From an uncultured Bacillota bacterium (GTDB lineage Bacteria; Bacillota; Clostridia; Oscillospirales; Oscillospiraceae): 36,958 bases of DNA. The DNA lies in contig CANEFX010000025.1 in assembly GCA_947426945.1 (NCBI GenBank), forward strand, positions 1 through 36,958, given 5' to 3'. The stretch's first letter is position 1. Each line of letters opens with the position of its first letter. Both the position numbers and the translations under genes were made by a program. The notes under the pieces are model-generated. The model saw nothing but the letters and a program-made list of their open reading frames with translations, was not told the DNA's origin and ran no database searches. Below, one piece after another: positions 11,294-30,246 of the stretch.

Positions 11294-14200
11294 ATGGAAA
11301 AGAGATGTTTAGACAACAGAAACAGTGGATTTTCCATGGTGGAGATGCTGGCAGTGGTGGCAATCCTCATCATTCTGCTGGGTATTTCCATGGTGTCTGT
11401 GGCACATTACCGGGATTTGCTGAAGATCACCGAGCTGGATAACGCGGCCCGGGAGATTTATATGGCCGCCGAGAACAGGGCGGTGCTGCTGTCCGGGGCC
11501 CGGAGGTTGAACAGTCAGGTTGGTAAGGCGGGCACGCCAACAAAGCTGACCGGACGGGCCGGGGACGGTGAGGCGGCGGGACTGTACTGTGTGTCCAAAA
11601 CCGGTGTAGAGAATTCCGGAGAGCTGCTGACCCTTGGGAGCATTGACCCGGCCCTGCTGGACGGCGATTTTTATATTGTCTACGACCTGGATGGCGGCAG
11701 CGTCACCGACGTGTTTTACGCTGAGTCCTCCCTGTCCAGCCTTATAGACGGCGGTTTCGATGCGTTTTATGCCGACTGGGCCAAGAGCCGTTCCGAGCGG
11801 TTAAAAATGAAGGACGAGATGCTGGTGGGCTGGTACAGCGGTCAGGCGGCCCAGAGCGGAATTTTTCAGCCCGATCCCCCTCCGGACAAGGTTAAGCTCT
11901 GGGTGCGGATCAAAAATGGCGAGGAGCTCACTGTAGAAGTCGGGTACAAAGGAGCCCCCGGTCCGGCGGAACTGTCGGTAAAGCTGGGGAACCTTGATCT
12001 GGCGGATCCCAATAAACAGGATTCAATATATGGCGACCGCAAAAGAGAGGAAAAGCCCGATCCCAGCGGCAAGTCCTATAGCTGTATCTGGGTGCTGGAC
12101 AGCCTGACGAAAGAAGAATGGAAGTTTAGCGAATTAGGCGTGAGCGGCGGCTTCTCTAACGGCGACGACTTTACCGTCACTGCTACGCTTACACCCAAGG
12201 ATGGGACTTCCTTTGCGCCGGTGTCCGCCAGCGACACAAATAACAGTCTGTTCCAGGAGGGGAGCAGCGAAGAGACAGCTTACATCGGATGCCTGCGCCA
12301 TCTGCAAAATCTGGATACCGGCTTTTACCGCTCCGGCGTACAAAACAAGACCTCCGCTGTCCAGACCGACGATATCCGATGCAGAGGCAACGAGACATAT
12401 GGGGATTATGACTTTGTCCCGATTTACAACCCGAAGCTGGAGAGCTACGACGGCCGGGCCAATGAACTCCGGGACCTGTACGTAAGCGGAACAAAATTCA
12501 ACACCCACGCCGGCCTCTTTTCCAGAATGGGGACCGGGACCTCCAATCAGCCGGCGCTGACGGTTTCCAATGTATATCTGATAAACGCCTGTGTAAGTGC
12601 CGCTTCAGGAAGGTACGCCGGCGCGCTGATGGGCGAGGCCCATCAGGGGGCGGAATTTCGCAACTGCCGGGTCTATTGGGATACGGACGGGGGTGCGGTC
12701 GGCCTGAAGGACGCGCTGGGCAGCGACGTGGATGGGTACAGATACAAAGACAGCGGCATATACGGCAAATATGCCGGAGGTCTGGTTGGGTTTATGACGG
12801 GCAGCTGCAGGATAAGCCGTTGCCTGGCCGCCACGCTGGTATATGGAGAGGCTGAGGCGGGCGGTCTGATCGGCCATTATGATTCGAACGATCTCACGAT
12901 CCGCTACTCCTACGCCGACTGCTGCCTGAGCGGAGGCGAGAGCGCCGCCGGGCTGATCGGTCAGCTGCCCGAGGGGAAAGCGGTAGAGCTGATCGACTGC
13001 TACGCGGCGGGATACGTCACGGGCGGGAGCGGGGCCGCCGGGCTGTGCCTGGGCAAGGGAAAGACCACTGCAGAGAACGTATACACGGTGGTGCGGCGCA
13101 TCGGGAGCGGCGACTTTTCGCCCCTGACGGGCGCCCCTTCGGGGGATTCCTTTACAAATACGTACTTCCTGGAGCCGGCGGATTGGGCTTCAACTGATCC
13201 AGCGCCGGCCGGGACAGAAGCCCTGACCTTTTCCGAGATGTCCGACCCGAACCAGAACAGGATGGCAGCGATTGTTGACAGGAGTGAGAAGGGCGACGAT
13301 ACCGCCCGCAGCTTCCGGTGGAAAACCGGGACGGACGGCCAGAGCTACCCATACAACCTTCGCGAGGGTCTGGTGCTGACCGTTTACGACTACCCCGGTC
13401 TGAAGAACATGCCCCATTACGGCGACTGGACCACAGATTTCAAGGGGACCAGTCTGGTTTACTATGAGCAGTATGAGGACGGCTTCTGCGGCGTCTCAGG
13501 CGGAAATATCTACACCCTGGACCCGAAAAAGCATGGGTCCATCCTGTCCGACGGCTACGCCGTGCTGTGCCGGCGGGAGGACGTGGAAAATAAGGGTGCG
13601 GTATCCGTTGACTGTACCTGGTACCGGGATGGAGCGGAAGAAACGGCCGGCAGCGTCTATTCGCAGCAGGTTGACAAGGATTGTTATGACACCGACTGGA
13701 CCAATCTGGAGGGCAAGCCTGTTTACCTGCGCGTTTTTCCTCTGCCCGAGTCGTTGTCTAACAGCGAGTACGCCGAGGACTGCTTTTACCGGTATTTGAA
13801 CATTGCCGTCAGTGCGGGCAGCGGTACGAATGCAGTGAACATGAACGCGCGGGCCTTCTACAATCCCCACTTTGCCGAGACGGCCATACCCATTATCGCG
13901 AAGGACGGCAGCGTCACTGCCGGCAACGTCGCGGAGCTTGCCGGCAATCTGGCAAAGGGCATGTTGGAGATTAAAATCCGCACCCCCCGTCATCTGTACG
14001 ACCTGAGCCGGTTTAAGGAGTACTATACCCGCCGGGACGTATACCGTCAGATACTGGACCTGGACTACGCCCGCTACACCGGGTATAACGGCCTGGTCCA
14101 GGCCAAAGGCGGGAAGCCCTATGCCCAGCAGCCCATCGGCAGATACGGCGAGGCTTTTGCGGGGACCTACAACGGAGATTTCCACAAAATCAAAAACGTG

Positions 14201-17200
14201 GAGCCCGACGTCAAGGAGGCGGCGGAGCGCCGGTACGCGGGTCTCTTCGGCTGCTCAACGGGCACGCTGCGCAACATTGTTTATGAGATGGACCCCCAAA
14301 ATCCGGTGGTAGCCCATCTGGGCAGCGTTGCCGAGAGCCTGTACGTGGGCGCCCTGGTGGGCGGCAACGACGGAGGTATAGTGGATAATTGCGCCGTTTC
14401 GGGGGCGAATCTCCAGGCGCAGGCCTCCGGCGTAAACCTCTACGTGGGGGGCCTTGTGGGGCAGAATAATGGTACGATTCGAAACTGCGCCGCGGAGTTT
14501 GCGAAGCTCAGTGCCGAATGCTACAACTTTGCCAGAGTTTACATCGGCGGTTTGGTGGGGGAGAACGCCCCCTCTCGTTCGGTCAGCACCTCCTACGCGG
14601 TGGGCCGTATCGACACTGCGGTGGACGCTACCATTAAAACGGCCCGTGTCTGCGGTTTTGTGGGGTGGAACTACGGGAGTATTTCCAATTCCTACGCAGC
14701 GGTGGACCTGCGGTCCAGCGGCGAGAATGTAGAGACTTACGGCTTCTGCGGCGTGAGGGCCGGCACACAGAGCGGGACGGCCTACCTGGATCAGGGGAGC
14801 TTTGCCTATCGCGGGACAGCCTACGCCGCCAACTATCGCCGGGACGGCGACAGGGCCAATTCTGCTGTCTACGTGGACCTGGCAAACAGGGATAAGGCCG
14901 ATGAGCTGGGAATGGGCGTACTCTGGACGGGGGAGAAACCGGACCCGGAGAAGGAGTATCCCTATCCTGCCGCCGTAAAGGACGAGAATGGAAATTATGT
15001 TCATTACGGCCAGTGGCCCGAGCCTATGCCTCTGGGTGAGATGGGTATATTCTACTGGGAGAAGCTGGTGATTAACGGCAGAGAGACCTACCACATGAGC
15101 GCCCTGGCAGTGGACCCGGTGAAAAAAACCATTGCCAAGCAGACAAATCTGTCCCAGGTCCACAGCGACAGCGGCGTGGTCACCGACTACGGTTACGGCT
15201 ATTATTCCCAGGAGACGGTCAAGGATGCTGTCTCATTGTCAGTAAGCAATATCGGATATACCGGGTATGTGCCATATGATTCAAGAAAACAGCTTCTAGG
15301 GCTTACAGATATGGTGCCGGGGAATCTGAAGCGGGATGAAAACTCGCGGTCGGATAAAAGAGAAATCGATGCGGAAAACGCCTTGTCAGCTCTGGTAGAC
15401 GGATATGTTTTTCACTGCTGGAATACCTACCGTGAGGCGCCGAAGAGGGCTGATAACAATGCGGATGATTATCGATCCAAAAGAGCCGTGTCCGGCCTGT
15501 GCCTGTTTAAAAAGACTAAAGACGGCGTGCTTGATCCCAACAGCGGAACCTTTACGCTGTCTCAAAGCGGAACCCAGGGAAATCAGACCATCAAGGTGGA
15601 GTTTATTGTCAATCCCCAGTTTGCAGACGCCATGTCGGTGAAGGACAAAGGGGGCTTGACCGTGACCGGCGGCGCGTCTGAAGAGGCCCCCGGCACGGCG
15701 GGCAACCACTACCAGGTGCGCTGCGGCATGCAGCTGCAGGATATCAACTGGTATGACACGGCCTATACCGACGTGCCTGTGGGCCTGGGAGATTACAAGG
15801 TTTACCGCTTCCCCTATTTGAACAAAAGCTATTATTGGGACCAGACCCACGATATTGACTGGGTCAAGGAAAGGAAGTCCTACGATATTCCCGGTGAAAA
15901 AAATGATGACGGCGTATTTTTCCCCATTGCGCAGGGCTTTGCCAGAGACGGTGACATGTCTCTGTCCGGCTGGTTTGGCGGCACCTACGACGGCGGCAGC
16001 TATACCCTGAAAAATTTCAGTATTGGCATAAACGAGAACAACTACCAGATCAATACGATGGGTCTTTTCGGAGTTGTGAAAAACGCTGCGCTGAAGGATA
16101 TTGTGATGTTTTCTGAATCCGGGAACGACGTAGTAACAGTAAGAGGAAGGAGTAAAGATAAGCACGACGACTCTACCAGGCTGAAAGACGATGCGCATGG
16201 CTGGTACGCCGGCGGCGTGCTGGCGGGCGTGGCGCTGAACAGCGAAATTTCCAACTGCGCCGTGGCGGGCTACACCGTCCGGGACGAGACGACCTATGCG
16301 CGCTATAAAGCAGGATATAATTCGGGCTCTTGGCGTCCGCAGTGGAATCCGGCCGAGTTTGACGCAGGCGGAGCTGTCGGCGGCCTGGTAGGGATGACCG
16401 ATGGAGAACTGAAAGGCTGCACGGCGGCCGCCACAATAGAGATATTGTGCGACCACTCAGCTGCTGCTGATCAGGATGGAAAAGGAATGAAGGACGCGCC
16501 TATCCGCGTGGGTGGTCTGGTGGGCTCCACAACAGCCGCTGTGACCAACTGCTACGCCGGCGGAGAGATTATCGTGTCGGAAAAGGCGGACAACGCCAAG
16601 ATCTACGTCGGGCGGATCATCGGCGGTTCGGGTGTAGAGCCGTTTGAGGCAGGTGCAGATAAGAGCAGGTCGGCCAGCGTCAAAAACTGTTACAGCTACC
16701 TGACCCTGCCTGCGGCGGGGAGAATAGTTGATACAGTATATCAAATCGGTGGCCACGGCGGAAGCGGCAGAGACGTGCCACTGTCCAACAACTACTACCT
16801 GAGCGGCACGGCGACGGCAATGACAGACGGCGTCCAGGCCGTCACCTACCGTCAGCTTGCGAATCTGGAGGATATCGACCCCGGCCAGAAGATTTACGAC
16901 AAGCTGAACGCCGGTCAACCCACGAAGCCTTACAGCCCGGTTACCTCTGAGGTGGGCGGACTGGCCGTGGCGGGCCGGTACAGCTACGCGCCCCAGAACC
17001 GGACGGATCTGCAGGGAGTGGATTATCCTTTCCCCACCGTACTCACCCAAACCCGTGTATCGGATGGCAAGAAGTTCAATGTCCATTACGGTGTCTGGAC
17101 GCTCAATGGCATTCAGCGGGAGGCGGGCGGAAAGCCTGTTGAACTGGATATGTTTACCCAAAGGGAATACACAGAAAAGCTGAAGCTGAGCGGAGGCTTT

Positions 17201-17998
17201 TCCACCGATGGAATTTGGTCGGCAGAGGGCGGAGACGGTATTATTCAAGTGTCGATTCCGGAGAAGCCCGGCGGTGCGGAGAATACCCTGACCATAACCG
17301 CCCTCAAAAAGAGCGATACCCCAGCGGCTGTAACGGTGAAGTATACTATGGACAGCGTGGAGTACTCCCTGTCTGTTACCGTCTATGTGACCGCCGTGGT
17401 GGAGCTGCGGCCCAGCACAGTGCGCATTTTCCCCAACGATACCGTGGACGTGGAGTTGACGCCCCATGGCGCCGTCCCGGGCAGCAAGGAGTACATACCG
17501 ATTGACGGCGGCGTGCTGAGCGATATTAAGGTTGCGCCGCTGGGCCAGCCCCTTGCCGCAGTAACGCCGGACGATCCGGACGCAAAGCCCGCCGTCAGGC
17601 TGACCCGGACAGGGGAAGAGGCTGCGGAGAAGCTGATGTGGATGGACGTGACCTATACCTGCACCAAGGACGGTTACGCGGAGGAGAACGTATCTCAGCG
17701 GATCGCGGTCACCCTGCTGGATCTCCCGGAGGGCATGTGGGACGAGAACGGCAGAGTCTGGTACGCCGATTTTAAGGATTATGCGCCCACGGAACTGAAA
17801 GCCGGACTTCCGGAGGGCGCTCTGGAAGGCTTTGAGGTCAAGGTGGATGGAACCGTCGTCACATTGAAAAAAGTGGATCCTGATGCTGAGGTCACAGAGA
17901 ATGCCAGTCTGAAGCTCTCCCTGACCATGGACGGCCTGGTCCACGAGCTCACCGTCGCCGTGCCGCCGCCTGAGAAGAAAGAGGAGCCCGTGCCCTAG
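11294..17998 (+). CDS. giant type IV prepilin-adhesin with GLUG/beta-helix modules
   Basis: 2234 residues in one uninterrupted frame. N-terminus: basic leader, prepilin peptidase site SG|FSMVEML (cleavage after G12, Glu5 of the mature form = E17), hydrophobic helix to about 38 and an amphipathic pilin helix to about 65, so it should enter a pilus. A pilin-like domain and an Ig-like stretch (about 195-310) follow. Then come three large modules, each opening with a HL/QL-type line (IGCLRHLQNL, about 331; IRTPRHLYDL, about 897; VRCGMQLQDI, about 1474) and each closing with YP...HYGxW (about 708, 1237, 1931). Within them are about eleven GLUG repeats, e.g. GGLVGQNNGTIRNC (about 1052), GGLVGFMTGSCRISRC (495), GGLVGSTTAAVTNCY (1738). 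The C-terminal ~290 residues are Ig-like (TVRIFPNDTVDVELTP) and end in a proline/lysine tail without LPXTG. It is the first gene of the minor-pilin group. Adhesin function is inferred from GLUG proteins. Confidence 0.88.
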   Translation: MEKRCLDNRNSGFSMVEMLAVVAILIILLGISMVSVAHYRDLLKITELDNAAREIYMAAENRAVLLSGARRLNSQVGKAGTPTKLTGRAGDGEAAGLYCVSKTGVENSGELLTLGSIDPALLDGDFYIVYDLDGGSVTDVFYAESSLSSLIDGGFDAFYADWAKSRSERLKMKDEMLVGWYSGQAAQSGIFQPDPPPDKVKLWVRIKNGEELTVEVGYKGAPGPAELSVKLGNLDLADPNKQDSIYGDRKREEKPDPSGKSYSCIWVLDSLTKEEWKFSELGVSGGFSNGDDFTVTATLTPKDGTSFAPVSASDTNNSLFQEGSSEETAYIGCLRHLQNLDTGFYRSGVQNKTSAVQTDDIRCRGNETYGDYDFVPIYNPKLESYDGRANELRDLYVSGTKFNTHAGLFSRMGTGTSNQPALTVSNVYLINACVSAASGRYAGALMGEAHQGAEFRNCRVYWDTDGGAVGLKDALGSDVDGYRYKDSGIYGKYAGGLVGFMTGSCRISRCLAATLVYGEAEAGGLIGHYDSNDLTIRYSYADCCLSGGESAAGLIGQLPEGKAVELIDCYAAGYVTGGSGAAGLCLGKGKTTAENVYTVVRRIGSGDFSPLTGAPSGDSFTNTYFLEPADWASTDPAPAGTEALTFSEMSDPNQNRMAAIVDRSEKGDDTARSFRWKTGTDGQSYPYNLREGLVLTVYDYPGLKNMPHYGDWTTDFKGTSLVYYEQYEDGFCGVSGGNIYTLDPKKHGSILSDGYAVLCRREDVENKGAVSVDCTWYRDGAEETAGSVYSQQVDKDCYDTDWTNLEGKPVYLRVFPLPESLSNSEYAEDCFYRYLNIAVSAGSGTNAVNMNARAFYNPHFAETAIPIIAKDGSVTAGNVAELAGNLAKGMLEIKIRTPRHLYDLSRFKEYYTRRDVYRQILDLDYARYTGYNGLVQAKGGKPYAQQPIGRYGEAFAGTYNGDFHKIKNVEPDVKEAAERRYAGLFGCSTGTLRNIVYEMDPQNPVVAHLGSVAESLYVGALVGGNDGGIVDNCAVSGANLQAQASGVNLYVGGLVGQNNGTIRNCAAEFAKLSAECYNFARVYIGGLVGENAPSRSVSTSYAVGRIDTAVDATIKTARVCGFVGWNYGSISNSYAAVDLRSSGENVETYGFCGVRAGTQSGTAYLDQGSFAYRGTAYAANYRRDGDRANSAVYVDLANRDKADELGMGVLWTGEKPDPEKEYPYPAAVKDENGNYVHYGQWPEPMPLGEMGIFYWEKLVINGRETYHMSALAVDPVKKTIAKQTNLSQVHSDSGVVTDYGYGYYSQETVKDAVSLSVSNIGYTGYVPYDSRKQLLGLTDMVPGNLKRDENSRSDKREIDAENALSALVDGYVFHCWNTYREAPKRADNNADDYRSKRAVSGLCLFKKTKDGVLDPNSGTFTLSQSGTQGNQTIKVEFIVNPQFADAMSVKDKGGLTVTGGASEEAPGTAGNHYQVRCGMQLQDINWYDTAYTDVPVGLGDYKVYRFPYLNKSYYWDQTHDIDWVKERKSYDIPGEKNDDGVFFPIAQGFARDGDMSLSGWFGGTYDGGSYTLKNFSIGINENNYQINTMGLFGVVKNAALKDIVMFSESGNDVVTVRGRSKDKHDDSTRLKDDAHGWYAGGVLAGVALNSEISNCAVAGYTVRDETTYARYKAGYNSGSWRPQWNPAEFDAGGAVGGLVGMTDGELKGCTAAATIEILCDHSAAADQDGKGMKDAPIRVGGLVGSTTAAVTNCYAGGEIIVSEKADNAKIYVGRIIGGSGVEPFEAGADKSRSASVKNCYSYLTLPAAGRIVDTVYQIGGHGGSGRDVPLSNNYYLSGTATAMTDGVQAVTYRQLANLEDIDPGQKIYDKLNAGQPTKPYSPVTSEVGGLAVAGRYSYAPQNRTDLQGVDYPFPTVLTQTRVSDGKKFNVHYGVWTLNGIQREAGGKPVELDMFTQREYTEKLKLSGGFSTDGIWSAEGGDGIIQVSIPEKPGGAENTLTITALKKSDTPAAVTVKYTMDSVEYSLSVTVYVTAVVELRPSTVRIFPNDTVDVELTPHGAVPGSKEYIPIDGGVLSDIKVAPLGQPLAAVTPDDPDAKPAVRLTRTGEEAAEKLMWMDVTYTCTKDGYAEENVSQRIAVTLLDLPEGMWDENGRVWYADFKDYAPTELKAGLPEGALEGFEVKVDGTVVTLKKVDPDAEVTENASLKLSLTMDGLVHELTVAVPPPEKKEEPVP

Positions 17999-18071: not shown

Positions 18072-18869
18072 TTGGAAACGCTGAAGAAAAAACTGAACAG
18101 CAGCCGGGGGGCTTCCATCCTGATGGCGCTGCTGTTCCTGCTGGTGTGCATGATGGTGGGGGCGTCCGTCCTGATGGCTGCGGCCTCCAATGCGGGAAAG
18201 ATCCGCAGCAACCGGGAGGAACAGCAGAAGTATCTCACCCTCTCCTCCGCCCTAACCATCATCTGCGATGAGCTGGAGGGTGTAGAGTACCGCGGGCGGT
18301 ATCAGTACCAGAAGAAAGAATGGACGCACGAAGAGACTTATGCGGACGGGACCAAGGACAGCTGGAGCTGGAATGAGCATATTTATACCAGGCTGGAGGG
18401 CTCTGTCCGCGCCAAAGGCACAAATTATGCCGCCGCGACTGAGTGGACACTGAAGGAGCTCCTCCCCCTGTACAAAAACCTGGACGCCGTTTTTGCAGAT
18501 GGCGACAATTTTGAGGTATCCATGGGCCAGAGAAACCCTGTGGACCAATACACATATGATCCGAAGAAGCCGGCCAGCCCGCCGGAGAAGCTCTATACTC
18601 TGGAGTTTACGGTGGATGCGGGCACAGTCGATTACGGGGGCCTGACGGAGCCGGTGAAGATTGTCGTCTCTGTGGGCGATGACGGCGCGATCGTGCTGAC
18701 GGCCTGTCTGGCAAACCACCCGGACTACATCATGGAGGCGGCGCTGACAGCCAATGACAGGCTGGAAGATCTGCTTGTCCTGGACTGCCCGGCAGCAGAC
18801 GGCGTCTATGAGACCAGGCCTGTCCGGTGGACTCTGGACTACATTGTGAAAAAGGGGGCGGGCGGATGA
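18072..18869 (+). CDS. PilX/GspK-like minor pilin lacking Glu5
   Basis: 265 residues. Leader METLKKKLNSSRG followed by the hydrophobic helix ASILMALLFLLVCMMVGAS; a prepilin peptidase would cut after G13. The fifth mature residue is Met, not Glu, as in GspK and PilX-type subunits, which are thought to cap the pilus tip because they do not need the Glu5 contact. The remainder is mixed beta with no recognised domain. The start is an unusual TTG at 18072, with AGAGGAGGGAG upstream; no ATG fits. It follows the giant pilin by 73 bases and overlaps the next gene by four bases (ATGA). Confidence 0.8.
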   Translation: METLKKKLNSSRGASILMALLFLLVCMMVGASVLMAAASNAGKIRSNREEQQKYLTLSSALTIICDELEGVEYRGRYQYQKKEWTHEETYADGTKDSWSWNEHIYTRLEGSVRAKGTNYAAATEWTLKELLPLYKNLDAVFADGDNFEVSMGQRNPVDQYTYDPKKPASPPEKLYTLEFTVDAGTVDYGGLTEPVKIVVSVGDDGAIVLTACLANHPDYIMEAALTANDRLEDLLVLDCPAADGVYETRPVRWTLDYIVKKGAGG

Positions 18870-19168
18870 AGAAGCTGGGAGACAGACGGGGGGAGACGCT
18901 GGTGGAGGTGCTGGCCTCCATTCTTATCGCCGCCCTGTCGGTGACCCTGCTCTTTGGCTGCATCATGGCCTCCTCCAACATGGACCGGGAGGCCAAGGGC
19001 CTGGACCAGAAGCATTATGAGGCGCTCACTGCCGCGGAGACCAGGAGCGGGGTGGGAACCTCCGGAAAAGTGAATATCCAAAACAATAAAAACAGTGTGA
19101 CAAAGGACCTGCCCGTTGAGATTTACGGCGGCGGGGGGATGTATTCCTACAAGAGGGCGGCCCCATGA
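18866..19168 (+). CDS. PilV/GspI-like minor pilin
   Basis: 100 residues, short for a pilin. RRG|ETLVEVLASILIAALSVTLLFGC carries the prepilin cleavage site and Glu5, followed by a helix and a short Gly-rich C-terminal region (YGGGGMYSYKRAAP). The ATG overlaps the preceding stop (ATGA), and its own stop overlaps the next ATG in the same way, so the three minor pilins are translationally coupled. Probably a core member of the tip-initiation complex (the GspI position in GspH-I-J-K). Confidence 0.82.
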   Translation: MKKLGDRRGETLVEVLASILIAALSVTLLFGCIMASSNMDREAKGLDQKHYEALTAAETRSGVGTSGKVNIQNNKNSVTKDLPVEIYGGGGMYSYKRAAP

Positions 19169-19683
19169 GAAAGAAGCTGAACAGCGAAAGCGGCCTGACC
19201 CTGGTGGAGATGCTGTGCGCGGTGATTATTCTGATCCTGCTGGGCCTGCTGCTGAACACTGGGCTACAGATGGCGGTGCGCAGCTATCGGGACCTGACCG
19301 CCCAGTCGGAGGTGGAGCTGCTGCTGTCTACCGCCGTGGACGCCCTGGCCAACGACCTGCGTTACGCCCGGAATGTCAATGGGAGCGGGACGACCTTTAC
19401 CTACGACAGCGACTCCTATGGAGAAAATACTGGCTTGGGAGTGGACGGTAAGGGTCAGATTGTGGCGAAAAACGGGAGCGGGGAAAAGCGTATTTTGTCC
19501 ACAGGGGCCTACGGGGCAGGCGGAGCGTACAAGGTGGCAGCGATGGAGATTACTCTGGGCAGTGCGGGCGATGAGATTACCTTCACCATTGCATTGAAGG
19601 TTGAGACCTCCGACGGAAGGATCAGCGCCGGGACACCCGACGGAGGCGTGAGCGTCCGGTGTCTGAATCCAAAGAAAGATTAG
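19165..19683 (+). CDS. PilW/GspJ-like minor pilin
   Basis: 172 residues. SG|LTLVEMLCAVIILILLGLLLN is a prepilin cleavage site with Glu5 and hydrophobic helix; the globular part (AVDALANDLRYARNVNGSGTTF..., GRISAGTPDGGVSVRCL) matches the GspJ/PilW pattern of a helix followed by beta sheet. The ATG overlaps the previous stop by four bases and pilB starts 14 bases after its stop. With the preceding two genes and the giant pilin it completes a four-member minor pilin set, as in systems where such a set primes pilus assembly and stays at the tip. Confidence 0.84.
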   Translation: MRKKLNSESGLTLVEMLCAVIILILLGLLLNTGLQMAVRSYRDLTAQSEVELLLSTAVDALANDLRYARNVNGSGTTFTYDSDSYGENTGLGVDGKGQIVAKNGSGEKRILSTGAYGAGGAYKVAAMEITLGSAGDEITFTIALKVETSDGRISAGTPDGGVSVRCLNPKKD

Positions 19684-19697
19684 ACAGGGGGAGGATC

Positions 19698-21395
19698 ATG
19701 AAATATATCCGATTAGGCGACCTGCTGGTTAAAAGCGGGACTATCACCAAGGAGCAGCTGAACGAGGCGTTAAAGATCCAGTCGGGTACTGGCGAGCGGC
19801 TGGGCGCGGTGCTTCAGAAGCACGGCTTTATCACCGAAAAGCAGCTCATCGATACCCTGATGAGCCAGCTGGGTGTGGAGTTCATCGACCTGAACGGTTA
19901 CAGCATCCCCTCCGAAATGGCCCAGGTCCTGCCTAAAAGCATTGCAAAAAAGCACGGGGTGGTCCCTGTCCGTGTGACCCGGACGGACGTCTACCTGGCT
20001 ATGGCGGACCCCCTGAACTTTGTGGCTATTGAGGAAGTCCGGTCGGTCACCCGGCGCAGAGTGATTCCACTCATCGCCGCTTCGGCGGCGGTGGACCGGG
20101 CGGTCCAGAACCTGTACAGCAACCAGGGGGCCATGCGGGCCATTGAGGATATGCAGCGGGACCTGCTGGGAAGCCAGTACGGCGGGACGGAGGTCACCGC
20201 TCTGTCCCAGCCCATGGCGGTGGACGAGGACGAGGCCGACGCTGCCCCGGCCATCCGACTGGTGAACTCCATTATCGATCGGGCCTGCACTGAGGGGGCC
20301 AGCGACATCCACATGGAGCCCGGCGAGGACAGCATGACCATCCGCATGCGCATCGACGGCATTCTGCGGCCTATCATCCCGGTGCCTCAAAAGCTGCAGA
20401 ACTCAGTTATCTCCCGTATGAAGATCATGGCCCGAATGGACATTGCCCAGAAGCACACGCCCCAGGACGGTCGGGCTAACGTCACCGTCCGGCAGGAGAC
20501 GCTGGACCTGCGTATCTCCACCCTGCCCACCATCCACGGGGAGAAAGTGGTCATCCGCCTGCTGCGCAAGCTGCCGGAGCTGGCCACTCTGGAGGGCATC
20601 GGCCTGGAGGGAGAAAACCTGGAGCGGTTCTGCCGCATGGTGGACCGCACCACCGAGGGGGTCATCCTGATGGTGGGCCCCACCGGCTCGGGCAAGACCT
20701 CCACCCTGTACGCCATGATCGACCGGCTCAAAAGCGACGAGATCAACCTGGTGTCTCTGGAGGACCCGGTGGAGTACCACATCGGCGGAGTGTGCCAGGT
20801 GCATATCAACGAAAAGACGGGACTTACCTTTGCCAGCGTGCTGCGCTCGGTACTGCGTCAGGACCCGGACGTCATCGCGGTGGGCGAGATCCGGGACGGG
20901 GAGACGGCGGAAATCGCCATGCGGGCGGCCATGACGGGCCACCTGGTGCTGTCCACGGTACATACCAATAACGCGGTCTCCTCCATCGACCGCCTGCTGG
21001 ACATCGGCGTGGAGCCATACCTGATCGCCGGAGCGCTGAAGGGCATCGTGTCCCAGCGGCTGGTGCGGCGGCTGTGCCCCCACTGCCGCCGGCCTTACAC
21101 CCCCTCGCCGGAGGAGGCGGCCGCCCTGGGTATGCCTCCGGGGGATTATACATTTTACCGGGGCGAGGGCTGCGGCGACTGCTTCGGCACCGGCTACCGG
21201 GGGCGGACGGGCGTCTTTGAGATTCTGGAGTTCACCGCCGGCATGCGGCGGGCGATCCACGCCCGGTCGCTGAAGGATTTGGAGAAGGCCATGGATACGG
21301 CCGGCTTCCAGCCCATTATTGCAAGTTGCCGCAGGCTGGTCCTGGAGGGAACAACCTCTGCCGAGGAGGTTTACCGGGTCCTGGGCGGCGGATAG
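19698..21395 (+). CDS. pilB: type IV pilus extension ATPase with MshEN c-di-GMP domain
   Basis: 565 residues. The cytoplasmic hexameric ATPase that drives pilin polymerisation. Residues 5-28 and 34-57 are two consecutive 24-residue MshEN motifs (RLGDLLVKSGTITKEQL..., RLGAVLQKHGFITEKQL...), each with the invariant R-L-G, G10, I12, L17, L21 and Q24 that bind c-di-GMP in MshE. The ATPase core has Walker A GPTGSGKTSTLYA (about 327), Asp and His boxes (EDPVEYHIGG, STVHTN), Walker B DPDVIAVGEIRD and the zinc tetracysteine CPHC (about 460) and CGDC (about 493). Start at 19698 follows GGGGGAGG; a longer frame would overlap the minor pilin. Confidence 0.95.
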   Translation: MKYIRLGDLLVKSGTITKEQLNEALKIQSGTGERLGAVLQKHGFITEKQLIDTLMSQLGVEFIDLNGYSIPSEMAQVLPKSIAKKHGVVPVRVTRTDVYLAMADPLNFVAIEEVRSVTRRRVIPLIAASAAVDRAVQNLYSNQGAMRAIEDMQRDLLGSQYGGTEVTALSQPMAVDEDEADAAPAIRLVNSIIDRACTEGASDIHMEPGEDSMTIRMRIDGILRPIIPVPQKLQNSVISRMKIMARMDIAQKHTPQDGRANVTVRQETLDLRISTLPTIHGEKVVIRLLRKLPELATLEGIGLEGENLERFCRMVDRTTEGVILMVGPTGSGKTSTLYAMIDRLKSDEINLVSLEDPVEYHIGGVCQVHINEKTGLTFASVLRSVLRQDPDVIAVGEIRDGETAEIAMRAAMTGHLVLSTVHTNNAVSSIDRLLDIGVEPYLIAGALKGIVSQRLVRRLCPHCRRPYTPSPEEAAALGMPPGDYTFYRGEGCGDCFGTGYRGRTGVFEILEFTAGMRRAIHARSLKDLEKAMDTAGFQPIIASCRRLVLEGTTSAEEVYRVLGGG

Positions 21396-21410: not shown

Positions 21411-22502
21411 ATGATGGTAGAAGAATTGATACATGAAGCACGGACCCGGCGCGCCTCAGACGTGCATCTGGTGGCGGGGCTGACGCCCAGGTGCCGGGTA
21501 GACGGTTCCATCCGGGAGATGGGAGAGACGCCCCTTACTCCCCAGCAGTGTGAGGAGATCATCCGGGAGCTGGCCGGCGGGGAGTTTGCCACCCTGCGAG
21601 TGGTGGGGGAGGCCGACCTGGCCCTGACCATCGCCGGGGTGCGGTGCCGGGTCAACCTGTTCCGCCAGCAGGGGGCATGGTCGGCGGCCATCCGCCTGCT
21701 CAACGAGCGGGCGCCCGACATGGACGAGCTGGGCCTGCCCAGGGCGGCGGCCGAGTTTCCCGGCTACAGCCAGGGCCTGGTCCTCATCACCGGTGAGACG
21801 GGCTCGGGCAAGTCCACCACCCTGGCGGCCATCCTGAACCGGATCAACAAGAGTGAGTGCAAGCACATCCTCACCCTGGAGGACCCTATCGAATACGTCT
21901 ACACCCCGGATCGCTGCGTCATCAACCAGCGGGAGGTGGGCAAGGACACCCAGTCCTTCGCCGCCGGCCTGCGGGCCGCCCTGCGGGAGGACCCGGACGT
22001 GATCCTGGTGGGCGAGATGCGGGACCTGGAGACCATTGAGACCGCCCTCACCGCCGCCGAGACGGGCCACCTGGTGTTCGGCACGGTGCACACCAACTCC
22101 GCAGCCGATTCCATCGACCGCATCGTGGACGTGTTTCCGGCGGCCCGGCAGCAGCAGATACGCCTGCAGCTGTCCATGACGCTGAAGGCGGTGCTCAGCC
22201 AGCAGCTGCTCCCCAAGGTGGGGGGCGGACGGGTGCTGGCCTGTGAGGTCATGAAGACCGACGGCGCCATCCGCAACCTGATCCGGGAGGGCAAGACCCC
22301 CCAGATTATCAACGCCATCCAGACCACAGGCAGCGTGGGCAATATCCTGATGGACCGCTGCCTGCAGAACCTGCGCACGTCCGGGACCATCAGTGAGGAG
22401 ACCTACCGCGCCGCCCTGCGGGACCAGTCCCAGGCGGACCGGGCTCCGGCCCCGCCGCCCGTGAACGCCATGCGCGCCCCGGGCTTCAAGCGGCCGCTGT
22501 AA
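21411..22502 (+). CDS. pilT: type IV pilus retraction ATPase
   Basis: 363 residues. Hexameric ATPase that depolymerises the pilus, giving retraction and twitching. Motifs: Walker A GETGSGKSTTLAA (about 127), Asp box EDPIEYVY, Walker B DPDVILVGEMRD, His box GTVHTN, and the retraction signature AIRNLIREGKTPQI that separates PilT from PilB. No MshEN domain and no tetracysteine. ATG 7 bases after GGGAGGAC; 15 bases after pilB. Its presence means the pilus is probably retractile. Confidence 0.96.
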   Translation: MMVEELIHEARTRRASDVHLVAGLTPRCRVDGSIREMGETPLTPQQCEEIIRELAGGEFATLRVVGEADLALTIAGVRCRVNLFRQQGAWSAAIRLLNERAPDMDELGLPRAAAEFPGYSQGLVLITGETGSGKSTTLAAILNRINKSECKHILTLEDPIEYVYTPDRCVINQREVGKDTQSFAAGLRAALREDPDVILVGEMRDLETIETALTAAETGHLVFGTVHTNSAADSIDRIVDVFPAARQQQIRLQLSMTLKAVLSQQLLPKVGGGRVLACEVMKTDGAIRNLIREGKTPQIINAIQTTGSVGNILMDRCLQNLRTSGTISEETYRAALRDQSQADRAPAPPPVNAMRAPGFKRPL

Positions 22503-22520: not shown

Positions 22521-23729
22521 ATGCCAACATTCAAGTACGAGGGCGCCTACGCCAGCGGGGAGCGGGTGACGGGAATCGTGGAGGCGGTGAGCCAAAACGA
22601 CGCGGTAGCCCAGATCCGGCAGAGCTGTGAAGTGGTCCTGTCGCTGAAGGAGGTGCCAAAGGCGGCCGCCCGGGACCCGCTGGCCCGGTTCCAGAAGATC
22701 AGCGCCAAGAGCCTGGCTCTGACCTGCCAGCAGTTCGCCATCATCCTGAAGGCGGGCCTGCCCCTGGTGCAGACGGTGAATCTGGTGGCGGACCAGTGCG
22801 GGGACAAGGTGCTCAGGCAGCTGCTGTTGCAGGTGTCGGAGGATGTGTCCAACGGCTGGGCCCTGAGCTACAGCCTGGAACAGCGGGGCGGGCGTAAGCT
22901 GCCCGTCACCTTCCGGGAGACGGTGCGTGCCGGCGAAGAATCCGGCGACCTCCTCTCCTCCTTCAACCGCCTGTCCGACTATTTCCAGCGCATGAGCAAG
23001 ACCCATGACAGCGTGGTCAGCGCCCTGACCTACCCCGCTTTTGTCCTGTTCGTGGCGGGGATCGTGGTGGCCATCATCATGGGCTACGCCGTGCCCACCT
23101 TTACCGGCATGTTCGAGAGCATGGATATTGAGCTGCCCTGGGTCACGGTAGCCCTGATCGCCGTGTCCAACTTCTTCCAGAAGTACACCCTGGTGCTCAC
23201 CGGGCTGGTCGCCCTGGCGATCCTTCTGGTCCGCCTCTACGGCGCCACCGAGAAGGGCGGCATGATTCTGGCCCGGGCGCAGCTGAGGCTGCCCATTCTG
23301 GGCGGCGTGGTCCGCATGTCGGGAGCCAGCCAGTTCTCCCACACCATGTCCACCCTGCTCACCGCCGGGATGCCCATCCTCCAGGCCATTGAGGTGGCCG
23401 GGCGGACCATGACCAACCGCTGTATGGCCGGCGAGGTGCTGGACACCCTGCCCGGCGTGGAGGGCGGCCGGTCCTTCGGGGAGTGCATGTCCTATACCAA
23501 AGAGCTGCCCGCCATGCTGGTGCAGATGACCGCCGTGGGCGAGGCCACCGGCTCCATGGAGTCCACCCTCAGGGTGCTGGCCGAGTACTACGACAACGAG
23601 GTGGAGGTGCGCACCAAGCAGGCCCTGTCCCTGCTGGAACCCGCCATCATCGTGGTCCTGGCGATTTTTGTCGTGTTTATCCTTATGGCGGTCTATCTGC
23701 CCATGTTCAGCATGTATTCCGCCATTTGA
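22521..23729 (+). CDS. pilC: type IV pilus inner-membrane platform protein
   Basis: 402 residues, the usual length of PilC/GspF. Two GspF cytoplasmic helical domains (about 70-190 and 270-390; typical FAIILKAGLPLVQTV, FRETVRAGEESGDL, FSHTMSTLLTAGMPILQA, MTAVGEATGSME) with membrane segments at about 168-192, 212-235 and 373-400 (IIVVLAIFVVFILMAVYLPMF). It links the ATPases to the growing pilus. RBS GGAGACAG precedes ATG 22521; 18 bases after pilT. The pilin cassette follows after a 383-base repeat-containing gap. Confidence 0.96.
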   Translation: MPTFKYEGAYASGERVTGIVEAVSQNDAVAQIRQSCEVVLSLKEVPKAAARDPLARFQKISAKSLALTCQQFAIILKAGLPLVQTVNLVADQCGDKVLRQLLLQVSEDVSNGWALSYSLEQRGGRKLPVTFRETVRAGEESGDLLSSFNRLSDYFQRMSKTHDSVVSALTYPAFVLFVAGIVVAIIMGYAVPTFTGMFESMDIELPWVTVALIAVSNFFQKYTLVLTGLVALAILLVRLYGATEKGGMILARAQLRLPILGGVVRMSGASQFSHTMSTLLTAGMPILQAIEVAGRTMTNRCMAGEVLDTLPGVEGGRSFGECMSYTKELPAMLVQMTAVGEATGSMESTLRVLAEYYDNEVEVRTKQALSLLEPAIIVVLAIFVVFILMAVYLPMFSMYSAI

Positions 23730-24112: not shown

Positions 24113-24583
24113 ATGAAAGGGTTGAGGGAAAAGTTCCGTAATAAAAAAGGTTTTACGCTGGTCGAAATGCTGATTGTGGTGGCCATTATCGCTATCCTGA
24201 TCGCTGTGTCGATTCCGCTGGTGTCCAATGCACTGGAACGTGCGAAGGTTGCAACTGACCAGGCAAATGAACGCTCGGCTGCTGCGCTGGCAGAAATCAA
24301 GTGGCTGACTTATCAAAATGATAGTACTGAAATTACTTGGGATGCCACTGGTGATAAAGCGACTCTCTATTATAAGATTGTCGGCTCTGCTGGCTCATTA
24401 GAAAGCACTGTACCAGGAGCAACACCGGGCAAAGAATATAGCTATGGTAAATGTTCTAAACATGCTGGGGCATATATCAAAGTTGAACTGGCAAAAGCAG
24501 ATGGCTCGATTAAGATGGAATGGGCTGGCGGCACAGGTACAACAGCTGATACTGACGGTGGGTACACAAAAATTACGACCTAG
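24113..24583 (+). CDS. type IV major-pilin-like protein 1
   Basis: 156 residues. NKKG|FTLVEMLIVVAIIAILIAVSIP is a full class III signal with Glu5; the mature helix continues through ANERSAAALAEIKWL. The C-terminal half is a small beta domain ending ADGSIKMEW and a Gly/Thr tail; only one Cys (KCSKH), so no disulphide loop of the classic type. It is the first of three pilin genes with almost identical N-termini and different C-terminal domains, lying between the 215-bp repeats. Base composition is richer in A/T than the pil genes on either side. Confidence 0.9.
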   Translation: MKGLREKFRNKKGFTLVEMLIVVAIIAILIAVSIPLVSNALERAKVATDQANERSAAALAEIKWLTYQNDSTEITWDATGDKATLYYKIVGSAGSLESTVPGATPGKEYSYGKCSKHAGAYIKVELAKADGSIKMEWAGGTGTTADTDGGYTKITT

Positions 24584-24597
24584 TTAACCACACACAT

Positions 24598-24781
24598 CCC
24601 TCAACCAATCCCTGGGTTGGCGAAAGACGGTTGGGGGCGAGTAACCATCAAACTGGAGAAAACATTTCAATATCTCCTTCCCACGGAGGGCAACAATCAT
24701 GATGATTGTTCGTCTACCCGTGGGTAGACGATGGGCGCTCACCCCCGCAAGGGTGGTAGCCTAAGCTGCCAGACCTACTCC
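24598..24781 (+). ncRNA. structured RNA/leader of unknown class before pilin 2
   Basis: A run of strong stems fills the gap between pilin 1 and pilin 2: CCCTCAACC/GGTTGGGGG (24598-24606 and 24629-24637) enclosing AATCCCTGGGTT and GGCGAAAGAC; GGAGA/TCTCC (24655/24673); AACAATCA/TGATTGTT (24692-24710); GTCTACC/GGTAGAC (24712-24729); CACCC/GGGTG (24740-24755); GGTAGC-CTAA-GCTGCC (24755-24770). GGAG (24685) and CTCC (24778) could close the last four into a multi-branch unit ending just before the ribosome site. No T-run, no coding frame. It does not fit the c-di-GMP-I or -II riboswitch consensus as I know them. Regulatory leader is my inference. Confidence 0.55.
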
Positions 24782-24799
24782 AAGAAAGGAAGATATGAG

Positions 24800-25228
24800 A
24801 TGAAAAAACTGAAAGAAAAACTGAGCGCAAAGCTCAGCAAAAAGGGCGGCTTTACTCTGGTCGAAATGTTGATCGTGGTCGCCATTATCGCCATTCTGAT
24901 TGCGGTTTCTATTCCCATGATGAATAATAATCTGGAGAAAGCCAAACATGGTGTTGACGAGGCCAATAAGCGGAGCGCTGTTGGTCTGGCATCTACCTTA
25001 TATTTAGCCGGTAGTGATCAAGAGCGGACTGATTTGGAAGCTGGCAGTTACAAGTATTTTGTTAATAATAATACCCATCAGGGTCAGCTTGCGAAAACCA
25101 ATCCAGGTGCATCTGATGGCTGGGTAGAAATAGCGCCTCAGTGCGCAGCGTGCAAAGCTGAAGGTTCAGGACTTTCCATTGTAGCAGATACTAATGGTGC
25201 TGTAACTGCAAAGTGGGCTAATCCATGA
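24800..25228 (+). CDS. type IV major-pilin-like protein 2
   Basis: 142 residues. Leader MKKLKEKLSAKLSKKGG then FTLVEMLIVVAIIAILIAVSIP (cleavage after the second Gly, Glu5 present). Helix EKAKHGVDEANKRSAVGLAS, then a beta domain with a CAAC pair and a closing strand GAVTAKW as in pilins 1 and 3. Start at 24800 has AAAGGAAG 8 bases upstream; a longer frame from 24731 would run through the folded RNA and has no ribosome site. It sits 216 bases after pilin 1 and 104 before pilin 3. Confidence 0.9.
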   Translation: MKKLKEKLSAKLSKKGGFTLVEMLIVVAIIAILIAVSIPMMNNNLEKAKHGVDEANKRSAVGLASTLYLAGSDQERTDLEAGSYKYFVNNNTHQGQLAKTNPGASDGWVEIAPQCAACKAEGSGLSIVADTNGAVTAKWANP

Positions 25229-25332
25229 CTGAAATATATGAAACCGGCTAAACCCGAGATTAAGATCTAAAAATTTCTTGGGTGCCCGCGAAAACGGGCC
25301 TCCGCTGGAAAGATGAATAAGAGGGAATGAGA

Positions 25333-25788
25333 ATGGCCGGAAAAAAGCGGAAAAGCCAGGGTGGCTTTACCCTGGTGGAAATGCTCATCGTGGTCGCTGT
25401 CATTGCGATTCTGATTGCGGTGTCCATTCCCATGGTTACTTCCACACTGGAAAAAAGCAGAGTTGCCGTAGATCAGGCCAATGAGCGTGACGCTCAAAGC
25501 TTGGCGGCGGCGTGGTATTTAACGGCTGACCAGCAGGAGAGGAAACTGGCGTCAAATGACGGCACTCGACCATATTGGTTGGTCTATACGGTTGATGCTG
25601 AAAGTCATCAGGGAAAGATTGGAATGATAGGTGTTCCCTACTCGGGTTATGGGTTATCCACAGCAGAAAGAGGATTTGGCAATGGCGCTGTAAAGAAAAG
25701 CCCCAAGGGCCGAACGATTCTTATAAAAATGGATACGGATGGAACAATCATAACACTTGAATGGGTAGATCCAGGTGACTTGCACTGA
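25333..25788 (+). CDS. type IV major-pilin-like protein 3
   Basis: 151 residues. SQGG|FTLVEMLIVVAVIAILIAVSIP signal and Glu5; helix EKSRVAVDQANERDAQSLAAAW; beta domain ending DGTIITLEWVDPG. No Cys in the mature domain. Start at 25333 is 8 bases after GAGGG; an ATG two codons earlier (25327) is too close. A GCCCG-CGAAAA-CGGGC hairpin lies just upstream (about 25277-25292). Followed by further hairpins and repeat copy 2, which end the pilin cassette. Confidence 0.9.
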   Translation: MAGKKRKSQGGFTLVEMLIVVAVIAILIAVSIPMVTSTLEKSRVAVDQANERDAQSLAAAWYLTADQQERKLASNDGTRPYWLVYTVDAESHQGKIGMIGVPYSGYGLSTAERGFGNGAVKKSPKGRTILIKMDTDGTIITLEWVDPGDLH

Positions 25789-26921: not shown

Positions 26922-26968
26922 TACATAATACGCACAAAAGCTGAAATTGTGAAAAGGAGTTGACAAAT

Positions 26969-27748
26969 GTGCCGGCGGACGAGATAATAATAACGGTATA
27001 TTTGTGCATTTGGCTGGGGATTTTCGGCGCGGTGTGGGGCAGCTTTGCCGACTGTGCCGTCTCCCGCTGGGCGGCGGGTGAGCGGATGTTCACGGGACGG
27101 TCGAAATGCGCCTCCTGCGGGCACGTTTTGTCGGTTCCGGATCTGATTCCGGTATTCAGCTGGCTTTTCCGACGGGGAAAATGCGGATATTGCGGGGAGA
27201 AGATCCCGGCGGACTGTCTGGCCGCCGAGCTGGCGGGGGCGCTGGGCCTTGTGTGTCTGGGTCTGCGGTTCGGCGCCGTCCCGGCGCTGGGCCAGTGGCT
27301 GGTCTGGGGGGCGCTTCTGCTGTGCCTGTCTCTGACAGACGGGGCGAAGCGGATCATCCCGGACGGGCTTCTGCTGGCCCTGGCGGTCAACCGAATGATA
27401 TGGTTTTTTGTGTTAAAAGAGGACTTTGACGCAGTTTTGAACGCGTTAAAGGCCTGTTTTGTGCCGCTGGCCCTGCTGGGGCTGGTGCTGCTGGCGGAGC
27501 GCCTTCTGGGCCGGGAGGTCATGGGCGGCGGAGACCTGAAGCTGCTGTTTGCCCTGGCCCTGTACCTCAGCTGGGCCCAGCTGCTGCTGGCTCTGCTGGC
27601 GGGCTGTGTGCTGGGGCTGCTCTGGGCGGTCTCCGCAGGCCGGAAGCGGGGAGAAGCGTTGCCCTTCGGGCCCTTTCTGGCCGCCGGCGCGGTGCTTACC
27701 GTGTGCTTTGGAGACCCGGTCCTCCGGTGGTATCTGGGGCTTTTTTGA
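26969..27748 (+). CDS. pilD: prepilin peptidase / N-methyltransferase
   Basis: 259 residues, polytopic membrane aspartyl protease (A24 family) that cuts prepilins after Gly and methylates the new N-terminus. The N-terminal domain keeps two CxxC pairs (CASC about 47-50; CGYC about 75-78). Catalytic Asp residues are in SLTDGAKRIIPDG and in the family motif GGGDLKLL (about 185). About eight hydrophobic segments. Start taken as GTG 26969 (AAAAGGAG 9 bases upstream); a TTG at 26960 touches the ribosome site. It should process all seven prepilins of this locus, including the giant one. Confidence 0.95.
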   Translation: MPADEIIITVYLCIWLGIFGAVWGSFADCAVSRWAAGERMFTGRSKCASCGHVLSVPDLIPVFSWLFRRGKCGYCGEKIPADCLAAELAGALGLVCLGLRFGAVPALGQWLVWGALLLCLSLTDGAKRIIPDGLLLALAVNRMIWFFVLKEDFDAVLNALKACFVPLALLGLVLLAERLLGREVMGGGDLKLLFALALYLSWAQLLLALLAGCVLGLLWAVSAGRKRGEALPFGPFLAAGAVLTVCFGDPVLRWYLGLF

Positions 27749-27761
27749 GAGGAGAGAGGAT

Positions 27762-28742
27762 ATGTCAGGAACCAGGCTTGGCTTTGATATCGGGAGCAGC
27801 AGCATGAAGGTGGCGGTGCGCCGCGGCGGCACGCTGCGGGTGGAGGAGGTCCGTCTGCCGGAGAATATGGTGGACGGGAACGGGGATATTACCCTGCCTC
27901 ACGCTTTTGTGCAGTTTTTGAAGCAGACGAAGAGGGAGCTGTCTCTGCCCGGGGGCGCAGCTTCGCTGGTGCTGCCCCCCAGCCAGGTGATCTGCCGGCT
28001 GGTAACCATGCCAAAGATGACCACCCAGCAGCTGATGATGAACCTGCCCTATGAGTTCACCGACTTTATCCAGGGGGTGGCAGATCAGTATTTCTGCGAC
28101 TACGCCCTCTGTTCTCCAGGGGAGGGAGAGAGCGAGGAGCACGGCGTGCCCATGATGGCGGCGGCCGCCGCCAAGCAGACCCTGGCGGAGTATGTGCAGA
28201 TGTTCTCCCGGGCGGGCGTCCGGCTTAAGACTATCCTGCCCCAGGAGATGGCCCTGATTAACCTTGTGAAGGAACAGGGCGGCGGGGCGGAGGAGTTCTG
28301 CTTTGTGGACCTGGGTCACCAGAGCACCCGCATTACGGTGGTCTGGCGGGACCGGGTTCAGGCTACCCGGAGGATCGCCCTGGGCGGCCGGAATCTGGAC
28401 CTGGCGGTGGCGGACAGCCTGGGGGTGGACGCCTTCTTGGCAAACACCTACAAGCTCAGCGATTACCAGGGCGTGCTGTCCTCCGATGGGGTGATCGACG
28501 TGTGCGACCGCATTGCGGTGGAGATTTTAAAGGTAATCAATTTCTATCAGTTTACATACCGCTCCAGCAGCCTGGAGGGAATCTATCTGGTGGGCGGCGG
28601 GGCCGCCCTGCCCTATATTCGCAAGGCCGTCGAGGATACGGTGGGCATGCCTCTGCTGCCTCCGGACCGCCTTTTGCCCGGTGCGGGCGAGCGGGCGGCG
28701 GCGGGCATCTTTGCCGTCGGTGCGGCCGGGGGAGGGAAATGA
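27762..28742 (+). CDS. pilM: type IV pilus assembly actin-like protein
   Basis: 326 residues. FtsA/actin-like fold on the cytoplasmic face of the membrane, holding the PilN tail and linking to PilB/PilC. Motifs: LGFDIGSSSMKVAV (phosphate 1), FVDLGHQSTRITVVW (phosphate 2), ALGGRNLD, and IYLVGGGAALPYI (adenosine motif). ATG 27762 follows GGAGAGAGG; 13 bases after pilD. First of pilM-pilN-pilO. Confidence 0.93.
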   Translation: MSGTRLGFDIGSSSMKVAVRRGGTLRVEEVRLPENMVDGNGDITLPHAFVQFLKQTKRELSLPGGAASLVLPPSQVICRLVTMPKMTTQQLMMNLPYEFTDFIQGVADQYFCDYALCSPGEGESEEHGVPMMAAAAAKQTLAEYVQMFSRAGVRLKTILPQEMALINLVKEQGGGAEEFCFVDLGHQSTRITVVWRDRVQATRRIALGGRNLDLAVADSLGVDAFLANTYKLSDYQGVLSSDGVIDVCDRIAVEILKVINFYQFTYRSSSLEGIYLVGGGAALPYIRKAVEDTVGMPLLPPDRLLPGAGERAAAGIFAVGAAGGGK

Positions 28743-28743
28743 G

Positions 28744-29301
28744 ATGAACAGAAAATCAGCCTACCCCACCAAAACGTCCATGAATCTGTTTTATAAGCCA
28801 GACCGCACCACCAAGCCTGCAACCGTAGCGCTGTACGTGCTGTTTGCACTTACCTGTCTGCTGGGGCTGTCCAAGCTGCTGGTATACGATTTGTGGATGG
28901 AGAACCAGGAGGCCCAGCGGGCCCTGGCCGTGGCGGAGGAACAGCTGAACAGCGCCATGCTCCAGCTGTCGGACTACAACGAGGTGCGGGAGCAGTACAG
29001 CCGCTACTCCGCCACCGAGGAGGAGCGGGCCCTCGTCGACCGTATGGAGGTACTGAACTTGCTGGACACGGCGGTGAGAGGTACCGCCCGGCTGGACAGC
29101 GTATTCATCAGCGGCGACACAGCCCAGGTGCAGATATCCGGGGTGAACCTGTCTCAGACGGCACAGATCGTCCGGATCCTGGAGAGCTCTCCCATCGTGG
29201 CAGGCACTGTGGTGAACACGGCCTCAACCACAGAGAACGCCGGGACGCTGGTTCAGACCAGCATCCAGATCCAGCTGCAGAAGGAGGAGGGCGAGGGATG
29301 A
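28744..29301 (+). CDS. pilN: type IV pilus assembly protein PilN
   Basis: 185 residues. A short cytoplasmic tail (MNRKSAYPTKTSMNLFYKP) holds the INLxP-like PilM-binding segment in altered form (MNLFYKP); one membrane helix (about 27-48), then a coiled coil (NQEAQRALAVAEEQLNSAML) and a small ferredoxin-like external domain. It starts one base after the pilM stop and ends overlapping pilO by four bases. In the absence of PilP/PilQ the PilN-PilO pair would end at the outer face of the membrane, as expected in monoderms. Confidence 0.86.
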   Translation: MNRKSAYPTKTSMNLFYKPDRTTKPATVALYVLFALTCLLGLSKLLVYDLWMENQEAQRALAVAEEQLNSAMLQLSDYNEVREQYSRYSATEEERALVDRMEVLNLLDTAVRGTARLDSVFISGDTAQVQISGVNLSQTAQIVRILESSPIVAGTVVNTASTTENAGTLVQTSIQIQLQKEEGEG

Positions 29302-30169: not shown

Positions 30170-30246
30170 TGGTACGGCTGAAGGGATTCGAACCCCCGAC
30201 CTACTGGTTCGTAGCCAGTCACTCTATCCAACTGAGCTACAGCCGC
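30170..30246 (-). tRNA. tRNA-Arg (anticodon ACG)
   Basis: 77 bases including an encoded CCA. Acceptor GCGGCTG/CAGCCGT (G-U at the first pair), D-arm GCTCAGTTGGATAGAG, anticodon stem ACTGG/CCAGT with loop CTACGAA (anticodon ACG, reading CGN after A34 deamination), T-arm GGGGGTTCGAATCCC-like. Own promoter at 30282-30310. Confidence 0.97.

Follow-up and report, generated by a model that had tools for sequence, protein, structure and literature searches.

What does a type IV prepilin signal do at the start of a protein more than two thousand residues long? The question is raised by a gene on contig CANEFX010000025.1 of the uncultured Bacillota bacterium GCA_947426945.1 (Oscillospiraceae), all 36,958 nt of which constitute the window analysed here. 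The product, referred to below as the giant, joins a pilin to a large cargo of predicted beta-helix modules, and its gene heads a group of minor pilin genes, three of which follow it directly, as a preliminary description of the sequence had stated. We put at roughly two in three (0.65) the probability that the giant is a modular type IV minor pilin which, judging from its sequence, would form a priming or tip complex with these K-, I- and J-like partners and carry its cargo at or beside the tip of the pilus.

Prepilin signal and cargo of the giant

The unbroken frame from pilin to modules that the preliminary description reported is present, running from ATG to stop over 2234 residues, and so is the prepilin signal: a leader of 12 residues is followed by FSMVEMLAVVAILIILLG, such that cleavage is expected between G12 and FSMVE, with Glu at mature position 5 (Glu5) and a hydrophobic tract. 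The Pfam N_methyl hidden Markov model matches at 21.2 bits over the whole protein, which is exactly the cut-off, at 22.9 bits over the first 720 residues and at 27.4 bits in the genome scan. Both the glycine and Glu5 are kept in all 45 rows of alignment A2, as is the N_methyl match, and over the alpha1 stretch the A2 profile matches 21 solved chains at E values up to 0.1, nearly all of them named as pilins or pseudopilins. Strands are predicted in the model of the pilin head; the fold search barely probed this domain, its match list being filled by the beta-helix, hence the absence of pilins from that list carries no meaning. The mature protein has a calculated mass of 240 kDa and an isoelectric point of 4.9.

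Only two Pfam families, N_methyl and GLUG (E 1.8e-20, five stretches), match the giant at E values up to 1. The three-module landmarks recur as originally described, with openings HLQNL at residue 336, RHLYDL at 899 and QLQDI at 1480, and HYGxW ends at 708, 1237 and 1931; the three HYGxW occurrences compare with a mean of 0.001 over 2000 shuffled sequences, and the seven GGxxG cores with 0.245. The count of 'about eleven' GLUG repeats was too high, with five accepted by Pfam and seven to eight given by relaxed patterns. Structure models (mean predicted local distance difference test scores of 85.8 and 74.7) and their fold matches indicate a beta-helix for modules 1 and 3, whilst the same fold is proposed for module 2 from sequence. 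The Ig-like character suggested for the C terminus is supported for the first two C-terminal domains. When the modules were compared with one another by BLAST, internal similarity was weak (best between modules 2 and 3, E 1.8e-4), hence they are not recent duplicates.

Neither a sortase nor an SLH anchor was detected in the giant. A motif search found no LPxTG in the giant, and there is no SLH domain, since the Pfam search just mentioned lists no family beyond GLUG and N_methyl. The original description, in which a pilin encoded alongside minor pilins bears a giant beta-helix cargo and itself lacks a sortase or SLH anchor, is supported. The host genome, which is 92% complete, gave no sortase match, such matches being found in three of 14 control genomes, and has 32 SLH matches elsewhere. 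Four N_methyl matches exceed the cut-off in this genome, all in the present locus (the giant and three ordinary pilins). The single other GLUG match, L147:4669-8235 (G000 C19), appears by eye to be a protein with an export signal, a helix-rich insert and a C-terminal membrane segment, lacking a prepilin signal. As this second GLUG protein is not a pilin, the giant is mounted differently. A search for PilY1 (PF05567) gave no match in the genome and none in any of the 14 controls, and is therefore uninformative.

A family of large modular pilins

Relatives were sought in named genomes with the single pattern [VI]x[YC][GAL]RHLQNL, taken from alignment A1; this yielded 172 stretches, and relatives are encoded by 119 of them. 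The 80 best were retained, and counts out of 80 refer to these. Half of them (40/80) are labelled Oscillospiraceae, Oscillibacter, Flavonifractor, Lawsonibacter or Intestinimonas, the remainder coming from other Clostridia or unplaced Bacillota, along with single metagenome-assembled genomes (MAGs) under such labels as Erysipelotrichaceae, Coriobacteriaceae or Christensenella. Oscillibacter sp. MSJ-31, O. valericigenes An907 and An890 and Oscillospiraceae bacterium MH27-2 are among the sources not marked as MAGs.

Although the pattern used for collection held only RHLQNL, a prepilin-type signal lies in frame upstream of this motif in 76 of 80 loci by a relaxed pattern, and in 71 by a strict one. 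The distance from cleavage site to RHLQNL is 289-410 residues (median 329.5, n = 76). Three of the remaining four are cut by a contig end; in the fourth, from a MAG of Candidatus Oscillibacter excrementavium, the pilin start lies in another frame behind a stop (L057:8800-9300), which would make it a pseudogene or an assembly error. The 59 complete members range from 561 to 4565 residues in length (median 2190), with 57 exceeding 860 and 37 exceeding 2000. The shortest, at L123:1032-12892, is overlapped by a frame of 3465 residues, and may be a frame-broken giant. The longest frame seen, in genome G117, reaches 5,261 residues and begins with a prepilin signal; the giant is one of a family. Some genomes hold several such pilins, since five accession prefixes are found more than once (two or three times) in the set of 80 and three long matches were obtained in each of G117 and G078.

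The first HYGxW is present in 9/9 rows of A1, where its position was not used for cutting; the invariance of HYGxW at the end of A2 is by construction, because the rows were cut there. At least one HYG.[WFY] is found in 72 of 80 loci. Against L055, the closest kept relative, the giant agrees at 73% in module 3, 72% in module 2, 66% in the pilin head, 56% in module 1 and 43% in the C terminus, and third codon positions are the most divergent in every segment. Variation towards the C terminus is also evident in alignment A3 (19 members), where identity is 0.16-0.20 in the C-terminal domains compared with 0.35 in module 3, and InlB-type Flg_new repeats are matched in eight of the 19.

Four other large pilins from the class sample (L176, L177, L178 and L179, with 3276, 2759, 2425 and 2017 residues after the cleavage glycine) have a related head and no RHLQNL, two of them carrying Flg_new (InlB-type) repeats. 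Three adjoin pilin-like minor genes and the fourth, L178, adjoins PilC. Given related heads and partners with differing cargo, the head and partners look constant and the cargo variable.

Two loci, L051:3050-13483 and L052:2305-17621, encode single-module pilins (frames of 708 and 781 residues, respectively) immediately followed by huge frames of 2768 and 4319 residues, both cut by the end of the locus and seemingly with ordinary export signals; this could be a split form, a pilin with a separate giant effector. In other families of the class, G322 and G416 have matches resembling the modules, within open frames that measure 18,042, 7,036 and 7,153 residues.

Partners, distribution and proposed placement on the pilus

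The giant and the K-, I- and J-like pilins are four minor pilins encoded together, a partner set that makes the giant a likely fourth member of a tip-type complex on sequence grounds. Flanks of 2.5 kb upstream and 2 kb downstream are available at 46 loci, termed well-flanked here. The full set of three partners was found within 2.5 kb at 38 of them, two or more partners at 42 and none at four (L088, L095, L122 and L134), the genomes of L088 and L122 having another copy in the list; over all 80 loci, at least two partners were found in 52. Glu5 is absent from the K-like pilin in all 45 readable of 47 loci, whilst it is kept in the I-like pilin in 44/45 readable of 48 and in the J-like pilin in 42/43 readable of 51. 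NCBIfam GspK is listed for 20 of 31 K-like relatives at E values up to 0.01 (best 4.4e-6), and I-like and J-like members match ComGE, ComGF, PilV, GspI or XpsI profiles in part; as the minor pilins in the window receive only weak names, the letters I and J are readings and not proofs. Compared with solved structures, the K profile matched no pilin, and the I and J profiles matched the Geobacter geopilin (J also major pilins) and no minor pilins.

Within the bacterial family, 28 of 200 genomes match the giant protein. A K-like profile is found in 20 of the 200, and a long-pilin profile in the same 20, where 'long pilin' denotes a match from model position 10 or earlier to 270 or later, a cut set after the table had been seen, and where the K profile, being built from giant-linked loci, is biased. 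Some of these 20 genomes have short pilins, with frames of 379-843 residues. In a sample of 61 genomes of the genus, the giant was found in six and K in five, all five being among the six. One continuous match to head plus module was present in 3/391 genomes of the class sample and 3/398 of the phylum sample, the source genome being included in each, and G225 had the match in two pieces in both samples. Hence the pilin family is patchy.

The giant would be exported as a prepilin, its leader being removed after G12 by the prepilin peptidase that the locus encodes and its alpha1 helix keeping it in the membrane. It could then join the three partner pilins in a priming complex at which the filament starts, with K, lacking Glu5, as the cap; as the giant has a Glu5 of its own, it would sit below this cap as the remaining subunit, and not outermost. 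Because filaments grow from tip to base, the cargo of roughly 240 kDa would be the first part to emerge and would come to lie at the pilus tip or next to it. There the beta-helix modules may serve as a rigid rod that binds ligands, perhaps glycans of host, dietary or bacterial origin, with the variable C-terminal repeats as the outermost part.

A number of observations weigh against such a placement, which has been drawn from genes and models. A beta-helix fold by itself shows no function, and the passage of so large a cargo through peptidoglycan without a secretin is unproved. The H position of the giant, which FimU or GspH holds in known complexes, is reached by elimination: NCBIfam returned no family for the protein and no H-type family for its head. 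Both the late choice of the long-pilin cut and the bias of the K profile count on the same side, as do three genomes (G064, G008 and G176) with head-only matches in frames of 3167-3261 residues and no K-like match, and the occurrence of the giant in as few as six genomes of the genus sample. The type strain of O. valericigenes has been reported, in the excerpted text of PMC3558957, to be without type IV pilus genes. Finally, a search found no pilus gene in four of the 46 well-flanked loci, and L127 has Gln at position 5 in place of Glu.

The last two points would also suit a protein whose alpha1 helix is never assembled and keeps it in the membrane, making it a wall-spanning surface adhesin and not part of a pilus. 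The giant is very large for a filament subunit, and pilins rest in the membrane before assembly; however, the complete retention of the glycine and Glu5 in A2, the operon shared with K, I and J, and a genome distribution the same as that of K make this explanation unlikely. Less probable still is that the giant is a pilus component spread along the shaft as side spines. Glu5 is present, and the excerpted text of PMC8179133 leaves room for a position along the filament body, given a flexible linker, but the giant is grouped with K, I and J, and the published modelling of smaller modular pilins, in so far as excerpted, favours the tip. An enzymatic action of the modules on polysaccharide or protein, which would make the pilus the carrier of a catalyst, seems very improbable given that no catalytic Pfam family and no HExxH was found; neither was there any protease family, as would be expected of an IgA1 protease (M26). 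The joining of a pilin gene to an unrelated giant gene through misassembly or frameshift can practically be dismissed, for although the window represents a single one of the 52 contigs in this genome, the same junction recurs at that median spacing in the 76 relatives, including records not marked as MAGs, and the codon-position pattern against L055 extends over every segment.

A broader proposal, which we hold tentatively, is that in these Clostridia the fourth subunit of the tip complex may have become an effector carrier, so that pili of this type would start from a pilin with exchangeable cargo, from one small module (the 379-residue frame) up to the 5,261-residue frame. On this reading a single gene product would serve both tip initiation and adhesion, its cargo being GLUG beta-helices here and different repeat arrays at related loci, and a folded rod of several hundred kilodaltons would cross the wall of a monoderm without a secretin. 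Whether a monoderm type IV pilus can carry such folded cargo through the wall is the question this raises. Such proteins would be candidates for how Oscillospiraceae grip mucus, fibre or neighbouring cells, and the K-I-J set beside the giant offers a route to monoderm pilus tips outside Streptococcus.

The features of the locus are listed below. A promoter scan of positions 10900-11400 gave three sites against a mean of 0.5 in shuffled sequences, one being on the + strand at 10976-11003. Across the window, Rfam at gathering threshold detected one tRNA and no riboswitch.

Features of the giant pilin gene and of the surrounding pilus locus (positions in the window)
Feature	Position	Strand	Basis or remark
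Giant pilin gene	11294-17998	+	Single ATG..stop frame, 2234 aa
Class III prepilin leader, residues 1-12	11294..11329	+	Sequence, Pfam N_methyl, conservation in A2; expected cleavage after G12
Pilin alpha1 helix, residues 13-68	11330..11497	+	AlphaFold2 helix 15-68
Pilin globular head, residues 69-190	11498..11863	+	Predicted strands 125-131, 136-143 among others
Probable Ig-like domain between pilin head and cargo, residues 197-320	11882..12253	+	
Module 1, predicted beta-helix, residues 324-712	12263..13429	+	Opens RHLQNL, closes HYGDW
Linker between modules 1 and 2, residues 713-890, LVYYE..DGY region	13430..13963	+	Alignment A1
Module 2, residues 891-1245, GLUG repeats, HYGQW at 1237	13964..15028	+	Pfam GLUG best stretch 1048-1068, alignment A1
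Linker between modules 2 and 3, residues 1246-1470	15029..15703	+	Structure model 2
Module 3, predicted beta-helix, residues 1471-1935, HYGVW at 1931	15704..17098	+	
C-terminal beta-sandwich domains, residues 1937-2231	17102..17986	+	Two of them Ig-like and a third probably so; lowest conservation in the protein
K-like minor pilin without Glu5 (GspK/PilX type), RGASILMALL	18072..18869	+	NCBIfam GspK 16 bits, cut-off 130
I-like minor pilin, RGETLVEVL	18866..19168	+	
J-like minor pilin, SGLTLVEML	19165..19683	+	
PilB-type extension ATPase (MshEN and T2SSE)	19659..21395	+	
Second T2SSE ATPase, PilT-like	21411..22502	+	Named by length and order
PilC-type platform protein (T2SSF, two stretches)	22521..23729	+	
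Three ordinary-size pilin genes (24113, 24731, 25327), probable major pilins	24113..25788	+	
Prepilin peptidase PilD	26960..27748	+	
PilM	27549..28742	+	Frame as listed, true start later
Two genes in PilN/PilO positions	28681..29837	+	Named by position; 28893 frame has a T2SSM match below cut-off
tRNA gene	30173-30246	-	Only Rfam match; downstream of pilus locus

Comparison with known systems

The serine-rich repeat protein of Lactobacillus reuteri has another route of secretion and another wall anchor, and no pilin. It is compared with the giant as a known system from the fold search (PDB 5nxk). The GLUG beta-helix proteins of solved structure (PDB 3n6z, and the IgA1 proteases 6xja and 7uvk) differ in that the giant has no protease motif and would be anchored by a pilin helix. 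In Thermus, ComZ is similarly a minor pilin with a beta-solenoid, but its solenoid forms an insertion within the pilin sheet and has a proposed role in DNA binding (PMC8179133; this and the papers below are cited from excerpts).

No description of this pilin family was found in the open-access library searched, although an entry could exist in the supplementary dataset of PMC8179133, since supplements and subscription papers lay outside the search. That survey counts 264 architectures of modular pilins, the most extreme multi-domain case being an 860-residue protein with 12 repeats (PMC8179133); hence the initial claim of a single extra domain in known modular pilins was too strong.

The pilins of the HIJK type form a complex located at the tip, with which assembly of the filament starts and of which K, lacking Glu5, is the cap (PMC9934059, PMC10191384). 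Four minor pilins, a K without Glu5 and the expected role in priming at the tip are likenesses of the present locus to these systems (FimU/PilV/PilW/PilX; GspHIJK; PMC7541494, PMC10191384). In Myxococcus, PilY1 and four minor pilins are supported as both primer and adhesive tip (PMC7541494). PilY1 is a separate protein there, whereas the effector here would be fused to a pilin, the head of which is placed in the H position by elimination.

A parallel in design is offered by PilB and PilC of Streptococcus sanguinis, in which binding domains are grafted at the C terminus of pilins encoded with other minor pilins (PMC8179133, PMC9934059). One partner pilin there lacks Glu5 as well, and PilC has the same order of pilin, Ig-like domain and binding module as the giant (PMC9934059). 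They differ in scale, PilB and PilC being around 50 kDa compared with around 240 kDa, three modules and several Ig-like domains, and in their partners, which here look like I, J and K. The grafting of binding domains onto pilins, already known, would be extended here to giant size in gut Clostridia, reaching 2000-5000 residues in many gut bacteria.
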